A stretch of 64,000 nt of DNA, from assembly GCA_932294295.1 (NCBI GenBank), contig OW028576.1, forward strand, positions 44,742,247 to 44,806,246, in the 5' to 3' direction. Both the position numbers and the translations under genes were made by a program. Shown piece by piece: positions 12,001 through 20,565 of the stretch (the stretch's first letter is position 1; the number at the start of each line of letters is the position of its first letter). This stretch comes from Alitta virens (taxonomy: Eukaryota > Annelida > Polychaeta > Phyllodocida > Nereididae). A model generated the notes under the pieces. It searched no databases. It saw only the letters and a list, made by a program, of their open reading frames with translations, and had not been told where the DNA came from.

Positions 12001-15000
12001 ACATTGAGCATAATGAAATTGTCTATCATTCAACATGTTCTATGAATATGCAATGAACTGGAACCTAAAACTGCACGGTTTGCAGTTAATTATCAATACC
12101 ATGTGCTAATATTCTTAATCAGCATCAAAATTAATCTAATGACCATTTCGTTTGGTTAATCAGTCATTTGTATTCAATTAGCTGGTAATTGATTCAATAC
12201 ATTGTTGAAAATCGATATGCCTGAGAACTGCAATTACTTATGTTTACGATATAAGTACCTGGACAACAGGGTCCCACAGAATTATGTAATTTGATAGATT
12301 GGTTAGAATAAGAATTACAATATAATTTAGTATTAATTGCATTTCAATGAATTATACCTTTTATGATAAAATCTGCAATTCCCTGTGATTTTGATGATAA
12401 AGTGATTTTATCTTTTGACAATTTTGTCATAGCATTGAACTTTAATATCTATTACAGGATGGAAATTAGTTGTGATGGGTAAACTCATTAAGATAAGACA
12501 AGACAAGATAGAACAAGATAAGATAAAATAAGATAAGATGGTACTAACATGGATAACTTTCACAAGAATTGTATAAGACATACACAAAAAAAAATCACAA
12601 TTTTTTTGGACATGACACAATTTTATCTAATGATTACTTTCAAGTTTGTTTTCATCTCAATGAATTGTTATACTGCTACAGGGCCAAATGTTCCCATACA
12701 CTTCAACAAAATACCATCAATTAAATTATCAATAACATAACTCAAATTGTAAAAAAGAAATTTCAAATTCCTAGAACTGTTGAAGGGATGTAGAGAACGC
12801 TGACTATTTATTTACTAAGAAATATGTGAAAATGGAAGAGAATTGTGTTTTCTTAGGTGTATGTAAACTTTTGGGCCCAATCTTTTACATGAGGGCAAGG
12901 AAATCTAGAAAAGAAAATTACAGTATCTCTCTGGGCCACTCTTTTATCTGATATATGTTTTTCCTATTTTTCAGTTTTTTGATCCCGGTGAAGTTTTATA
13001 CCGCTATGAATCTCCACCTGGTTATGGACTTATTGCAATCCAGATTCTGGCTTGGATTTGGTTCTGTTATGCCATATTCTTCACTTTGAAACACTACCCT
13101 GAGAAATCTCAGTTTTATTATCCATTTTTTGTGTTCTACACTATTTGGTGAGTAATTTTTTCAAATATTTTTAAATATTTTGTAGTAATAATGATGTTGA
13201 AATTTATATTGGTCCTATATAATATATTGAGAATTATCAGGTTACCATTGGGAGTATATATTACATATACAGTTGATCTTACCTTGGATGAACTAATAGA
13301 AGGATTGGACACTTCGAAAGTAGTAAAACAATATTCATTAGTAGGTGATTTGAGAAGAGTCAAATTCGCCCAGAGCTGGCCCAAGGACCCCTGCTGCTTG
13401 CTTCCTTAAGTACATAAATTCTTTGATGTTCACACTGCGCTTCAGTGAGCACACCCCTCATCAGTGATGCCCTGCATCAGCAGCCATTAGCTCCCGTAAA
13501 TTCCAAACGTCAAAGTTTTTGTTTCTTGTTGTACATCTTATACACTACTCTCAGTGAATTCAGCATGATCCCAGGATTCAAAAGGCATTTTTACCGAATT
13601 TCAAGGCCTAATATTACGAAGGTTATTGTCAAAAATGTCAGTTTTGAAGTACTGTTTAGTAAAATATCTTATCTTAATCTCGCAATAACCCAAGATGCAG
13701 TAAAGAGCCATAGATGAGGCCATATTAGTCTAGAAGCTGAAATTATTGTCTTCATGATGATTGTTATGTCATATATGTCTTAATGTGTCGAACTGAGAAA
13801 AAAATGCCAAATTTCCATGGATGTGCCCAGATGTGTCATACTACATTTGATAAAAACTTGTATTTTTTCAAATGTCACAGAGTCACTTATGATACGGTTT
13901 TTTCTGTGAATTTTGCTTTTGGTTACATATTTGACATATCCAAATATATAGATGCCTACAGATATAAAATTTCAAAAGTCTGAAAACAATGAAGCAAAAA
14001 TGTCAAGCTTATATACTGAGTATAGAGGAAAGATATGCATGCCAGCTTATATGAATACATATTTAGCATCCCCTTCTATTGTTTCCCAGTGGAATCAGTG
14101 AGAGGCAGCGAAACGCAGTGTGAACCTCATAAGTACCAAAGTGTCCTACCTTCTCTAGTTCATCCAAGATATGAAATTTTGCATTGTATTGATCAATGAT
14201 CATATGTGCATCATCGTAGAATTCTAGTGACACTTAAAATACTGAATTTTCATGTCCGTTAAGAATTAATTATTTGCAGTTTCGTATTTGATTTATAAAT
14301 TTGAAACGATGTAAAATGATGCCAAATTTTGTATCGCATTATGTATTCAAATCCGCAAATTGGTTCGACCAGGTTTGCGGCAGCTCCCATAGTAATCTTG
14401 GTAGCCAACCAAGCCATACCAAAGTATGTGAGGGAAAAGACAGCTTATGGTATCTTGGTTGCTGTTAAGTGCTATGGTATGGTTGGGTTTTTGGTAAGTT
14501 ACGGTGAAAATATAACCCAAATTGTATATACAACATACAGGCTTATTCGCAACTAACCGCTGGTAGCTTAAGCGTAAGGCCTTAAGCATGGTCACTGCAC
14601 CTGGTCAAATCCAGTTCTTTTATTACAGATTAATTCTAAAATCTTTAACATGGTAGATTTGTAACTGTAAATATGCAAATGAAATGGTGTTCTGTGAAAT
14701 TAACCACACCCATGTTAACAAATCCATATCTTCTGTCAAAGGTATTTTGTTCAAAATCTCAATCTGAAGATATTCCTTAGTATATAATAACAGTACTGTT
14801 ATGAAAGGACCTTATATGGCATAAGGCTGTGTACTACGTCATCTTTCTGTGGGGGAATTCCGTGACATAAAGTTAAAAGTTAACTAGATGATTTTGAAAA
14901 AGGGCCTTCAATAATAGATCACAGGAATATTAATCTATTATGTCATTGGAAGCAAAAATCAATATCCCTGTTGCTATCATGGCCAAGTTTTCACAACACG

Positions 15001-20565: not shown

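Follow-up and report, generated by a model that had tools for sequence, protein, structure and literature searches.

Two tandem arrays of alternative helix-coding exons predicted in the TMEM145 gene of Alitta virens

The window analysed here, a whole stretch of 64,000 nucleotides from Alitta virens, carries on its plus strand a gene which, judged by homology, is TMEM145, and a complete coding sequence of 528 amino acids was predicted from the window together with 9 kb read upstream. The two 5′ exons lie upstream of the window (L015 7921-8037, which carries the ATG, and 8139-8213). The GOLD domain is encoded by an exon at 61-138, recognised by the family profile, a single-copy exon at 1251-1448 (profile E 2.9e-30) and a single-copy exon at 1886-1970, in which the domain ends (E 1.3e-17). 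These are followed by two 72-nt exons for TM1, copy a at 2797-2868 (TM1 profile E 4.7e-8) and copy b at 3403-3474 (E 2.4e-11), and by profile-supported single-copy exons for the TM2 region (4862-5011), TM3-TM4 (5398-5570) and TM5 with the first half of TM6 (12975-13147), the last of which leaves two codon bases over at its 3′ end. Three alternative exons of 121 nt, each encoding the second half of TM6 and TM7, come next, namely A at 14373-14493 (E 6.1e-12), B at 15305-15425 (E 2.3e-12) and C at 16925-17045 (E 1.7e-11). The common exon after the trio (18080-18139, E 4.6e-16) leads to two C-terminal tail exons, one at 19495-19668 with profile support and one of 42 nt at 19927-19968 without profile support of its own, and to the last coding exon at 20497-20565, which ends with TAG and whose profile match is weak (E 0.13). 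Profiles of the 11 other exons, the 14-aa exon being left out, were searched on L015 and window positions 1-24000 and had one copy each at E < 1e-4, save for the last exon, while the remaining rows had E of at least 0.26. Rfam had no match in window positions 1-24000.

The homology search with the predicted protein scored 7994 candidates, 727 of them at E ≤ 0.001, and the named matches among the 120 listed of these 727 were mostly TMEM145, which were 51-58% identical to the query over 77-99% of its length. The top match was an unnamed 511-aa protein (P0032, 62%), and Mactra and Owenia rank ahead of vertebrates among the TMEM145 matches listed. The TMEM145 matches among these 120 carry PF21892 (GOLD) and PF10192 as precomputed domains. 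PF10192, the GPR180/TMEM145 seven-helix domain, was scanned on 118-aa pieces, one for each version of the trio, and scored 97.4 bits with C, 86.7 with B and 89.9 with A against a curated cut-off of 23.7. With such a piece as query, solved structures gave no match by sequence. In the protein a GOLD domain precedes seven helices that match those of TMEM87A and WLS, which is the arrangement of the GOST fold; these two GOST proteins share 10-12% identity with the window protein, and WLS, which superposed poorly (rmsd 15.3), took fifth rank in Foldseek and was absent among the 50 rows shown of the identity comparison. A sequence-only reading of this DNA had spoken of a TMEM145-like receptor. TMEM145 is borne out by PF10192 and by homology, but the word receptor is doubtful, given that a study on TMEM87A and the GOST family doubts G-protein signalling and proposes cargo trafficking (PMC9711517).

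Exons A, B and C have the coordinates, 121-nt length, phase and splice dinucleotides which that reading had given them, and the observation of three 121-nt exons is confirmed. The residues in common, put earlier at 11 to 17 of 40, were counted as 11/40 for A/B, 13/40 for A/C and 17/40 for B/C, and not one of the corresponding BLOSUM62 scores was attained in 100,000 residue shuffles. The TM6-7 profile, which was built from 16 non-window proteins out of the 120 listed and searched on 2800 six-frame pieces of the window, had three strong matches (B, A and C) and a fourth only at E 1.3. Three homologous, interchangeable exons of a TMEM145 gene are thus backed by the family search, PF10192 and the TM6-7 profile. 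Their extent had been described as TM6-TM7, with the loop and last helix swapped; the loop and TM7 stand, but the second half of TM6 is covered as well. When C together with the next exon was used as query on the whole 671-Mb assembly, five rows came back: C and the 18080 exon as strong matches, the two other copies as weak ones (B at E 0.12 and A at E 0.56), and a single unrelated row at E 9.5. More diverged copies elsewhere would escape this search. Pattern matches in bacterial and archaeal genome contigs (74) and in viral contigs (43) included no relatives.

In addition to the trio, the TM1 exon is duplicated in the same gene, which the earlier reading had not mentioned. Copies a and b are 72 nt each and of equal phase, and share 11 of 23 whole-codon residues; the TM1 profile had two strong matches in the window, with the next row at E 0.19. 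Both arrays consist of adjacent homologous exons of equal length and equal phase which have their own splice sites. The codon positions of the TM1 pair differ at 9, 6 and 18 of 23 sites (positions 1, 2 and 3), and the contrast between positions 2 and 3 is significant (Fisher p 0.0009).

Only single inclusion keeps the tail in frame, as had been claimed: A, B or C alone leads to the natural stop, and with the real downstream exons the skipped form and the AB, AC, BC and ABC forms all stop early, which makes joint inclusion or skipping of the 121-nt trio unproductive by frame. If the trio is skipped, the stop comes directly after W-Y, 272 nt upstream of the last exon junction, while the premature stops of AB, AC, BC and ABC lie 109, 349, 349 and 392 nt before it. 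The exon-junction rule for nonsense-mediated decay is established in vertebrates, and by this usual rule the skipped and multi-copy products would be decay targets. That mutually exclusive use is built in, as the sequence-only reading put it, is too firm a statement: the frame renders the other products of the trio faulty, but alone it does not block them. The interpretation of that reading is partly supported, for homology and frame. The frame argument is valid for the 121-nt trio only, because the TM1 exons of 72 nt are frame-neutral: skipping or doubling them keeps the frame but loses or doubles a helix, so that the frame does not police the TM1 choice.

The best explanation, to which we give a probability of about three in four, is that two tandem arrays (TM1 in two copies, the second half of TM6 with TM7 in three) are spliced mutually exclusively. 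The homologous coding exons would have been duplicated in tandem, one copy would be chosen per array, giving up to 2 x 3 = six predicted isoforms, and nonsense-mediated decay would remove the mis-spliced products. Some of the comparisons between copies count against this explanation, as does the frame-neutral length of the TM1 exons. The trio copies are only 28-43% identical and thus more diverged than typical mutually exclusive exons, for which a published set had a mean identity of 67% and, in fly, a filter floor of 25% (PMC7954323). The differences at codon positions 1, 2 and 3, each out of 40, were 19, 21 and 29 for A/B, 19, 14 and 31 for A/C, and 18, 15 and 26 for B/C; the contrast between positions 2 and 3 is significant for A/C (Fisher p 0.0003) and B/C (p 0.025), and the non-significant result for A/B (21/40 vs 29/40, p 0.11) likewise counts against it.

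The splice sites bear on an unlikely alternative, in which only C and one TM1 copy are used and A and B are old duplicates in decay. Good splice sites had been attributed to all three exons, and this was found to be true of the donors, the 14 donors of the window matching 5 or 6 of the 6 positions of GTRAGT, but not of the acceptors of A and B, which are pyrimidine-poor (10/20 and 11/20, against 16/20 in C), a point in favour of decay. However, the acceptor of the constitutive exon 1886 is equally poor (11/20), so that the poor acceptors of A and B are not diagnostic; TM1a also has 11/20, and acceptors other than these four have 14-18/20. A and B keep their GT-AG sites and fit the family profile as well as C does (42.5 and 43.8 bits against 41.0), which speaks against decay, and both are open, a state found in 452 of 4081 overlapping 40-codon windows of the adjoining introns. 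As such a share of intron windows is open, openness alone is weak evidence, and the profile fit and the splice sites carry the case. The alternative could also draw on the exon-directed protein search with a chimeric A+B+C sequence, in which none of 26 candidates reached E ≤ 10 and no copy found a match, although known TMEM145 proteins were missed too, which makes this a weak negative; it is also counted against the best explanation.

It is very unlikely that the copies are used chiefly as a switch, in which joint inclusion or skipping, unproductive but frequent, would set the level of TMEM145 via nonsense-mediated decay and diversity would be secondary. In all five non-single combinations the stop does fall 109-392 nt before the last junction, but three divergent, family-like sequences would be needless for such a switch, and the TM1 copies are frame-neutral. 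An assembly artefact, whether by collapsed haplotypes or misjoined paralogous loci, is hardly credible, since the pairs of copies agree at only 52, 57 and 62 of 121 bases, the introns between A, B and C have just short repeats in common, and no further locus with the trio came up when the assembly was searched with C.

As to how one copy would be chosen under mutually exclusive splicing, the introns between the copies measure 811 nt (A-B) and 1499 nt (B-C) and none of the donors departs from the usual type, with neither a very short intron nor mixed U2/U12 intron types, and steric or minor-spliceosome exclusion is therefore unlikely. A docking/selector search in this one species gave -19.9 kcal/mol with the first intron as dock (1 of 12 shuffles lower) and -17.2 kcal/mol with the last intron as dock (6 of 12 lower); neither pairing is significant, which is counted against the best explanation. 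What the swap might alter was considered on the model of a relative, which tells against this part of the explanation. The swapped segments might be helices 1, 6 and 7, neighbours in the GOST bundle, and might adjoin the lateral slot which TMEM87A and WLS have between their helices 5 and 6; because of this position, the cavity, the bound lipid, the cargo or the partner would vary from one isoform to another, with the GOLD domain and the tail constant.

The age of the copies was compared on 41 columns with 20 segments of other proteins (16 aligned and 4 fragments). The best outside identity was 22 for A (Dreissena, Paralvinella), 23 for B (Owenia) and 19 for C (Paralvinella, Solea), and on the same columns the copies share 12 (A/B), 14 (A/C) and 18 (B/C) residues with one another. 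For C the lead of other phyla over B is a single residue, and picking the best of 20 segments works in favour of such a lead; both points are counted against the best explanation. Seven tree tests were run on these 41 columns with long branches, two of them with a mixture model; P0035, P0070, P0097 and P0147 were left out of the 16 as near-duplicates and 3 fragments were added, while in two of the runs P0126 and these fragments were omitted as well. Trees holding all three copies together were rejected at p 0.023, 0.007 and 0.024 and not rejected at p 0.19, and of those holding pairs together B+C was rejected (p 0.037), while A+C (p 0.14) and A+B (p 0.18) were not. These results are suggestive of old duplications, possibly predating some phylum splits, or of fast divergence. 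On 41 columns the two cannot be told apart.

Tripled exons in gene models can arise when gene finders chain alternative exons. The 66-aa GOLD exon was found tripled in 2 of 150 proteins, namely P0146 of Paralvinella and P0033 of Mactra, one copy being partial in the latter, which suggests a third exon array, for the GOLD exon, in annelids and bivalves. A doubled TM1 or TM6-7 segment was seen in none of the 150 proteins, which is against a family-wide reading, although isoforms are hidden in the database, which merges entries more than 90% identical. In isoform X6 of Lineus the TM6-7 segment is unusual, sharing no more than 13/41 with A, B or C, and this is a lead only. It is rather unlikely, although worth stating as a conjecture, that the exon arrays of invertebrate TMEM145 are anciently combinatorial, that is, that they arose before the phylum splits, swap TM1, TM6-7 and possibly the main GOLD exon, and tailor cargo or partner by cell type, for example in ciliated sensory cells, vertebrates having fixed one version. 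Two more PF10192 loci were also found in the genome, L016 (G000:C2:34109208-34110052) and L017 (G000:C7:19379277-19382220), each with two pieces over the family cut-off. On the C2 and C7 stretches the TM6-7 profile reached a best E of 0.065 and 0.16, respectively, and it is too insensitive there, having missed the C7 Pfam segment at 19382113, so that these two genes may carry arrays as well.

Exon switching of receptor helices is already known from the ecdysis triggering hormone receptor of insects, whose isoforms A and B use two alternative 3′ exons including the C-terminus of a typical GPCR. The TMEM145 trio is unlike this in that its three exons are internal and lead to a tail which they share, in that TM1 has an array of its own, and in that the gene encodes a GOST protein. 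Exon 8 of the insect nicotinic receptor alpha6 touches a membrane segment, and the exon arrays of Dscam1 code for extracellular parts. As in TMEM145, exons 3 and 8 of alpha6 are tandem duplicated in a membrane protein gene, and RT-PCR showed exclusive splicing of the exon 3 copies (PMC1919356); unlike TMEM145, alpha6 is a ligand-gated channel of an unrelated protein family. Dscam1 resembles TMEM145 in its several homologous-exon arrays, from each of which one is chosen in Dscam1 (PMC8042237, PMC6071210), and differs in its far more numerous isoforms and in its reported control by RNA structure. For the family itself, it had been stated that no such system was known, and none of the papers listed on TMEM145, GOST, mutually exclusive exons for transmembrane helices and GPR180/CG9304/C15A7.2 points to one. 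TMEM145 has been assigned a role in the stereocilia of hair cells (PMC12716839), occurs in the cilia of sensory neurons in C. elegans, where the cilia of mutants are of normal length (PMC11317154), is paired with fly CG9304 (PMC10898740), and in human appears as an alternate terminator event (PMC7432180). Among GOST proteins, TMEM145 is a poorly understood one. If mutually exclusive splicing holds, natural swaps of helices 1, 6 and 7, with the rest of the protein constant, would point to the part which determines binding, and would open the cargo or ligand of GOST proteins to testing. Should the arrays have the age at which the tree tests hint, helix swapping would also have persisted in this seven-helix protein for a long time.

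Repeats and mobile elements were observed within and beyond the gene. The TMEM145 intron 5571-12974 holds a retroelement at 6111-10610 with an RVT_1 reverse transcriptase and a weak, below-cut-off match to Phage_int_SAM_4 (tyrosine-recombinase-type), which makes it DIRS-like. The intron before exon A contains nested inverted repeats (13277-13295 with 14156-14174, and 13424-13443 with 14110-14129), and the stretch 13277-14174 is possibly a foldback or terminal-inverted-repeat element. Moreover, a BEL/Pao-type retrotransposon with long open frames lies on the minus strand at 25571-31243 and has Peptidase_A17, DUF1759, DUF5641 and an integrase zinc-binding domain. Tandem arrays inside open frames have units of 42 bp (42966-43447) and 30 bp (48065-48476), a 60-bp array is present at 46153-46700, and a 73-bp unit is repeated in about 64 copies at 59341-64000, reaching the edge of the window.
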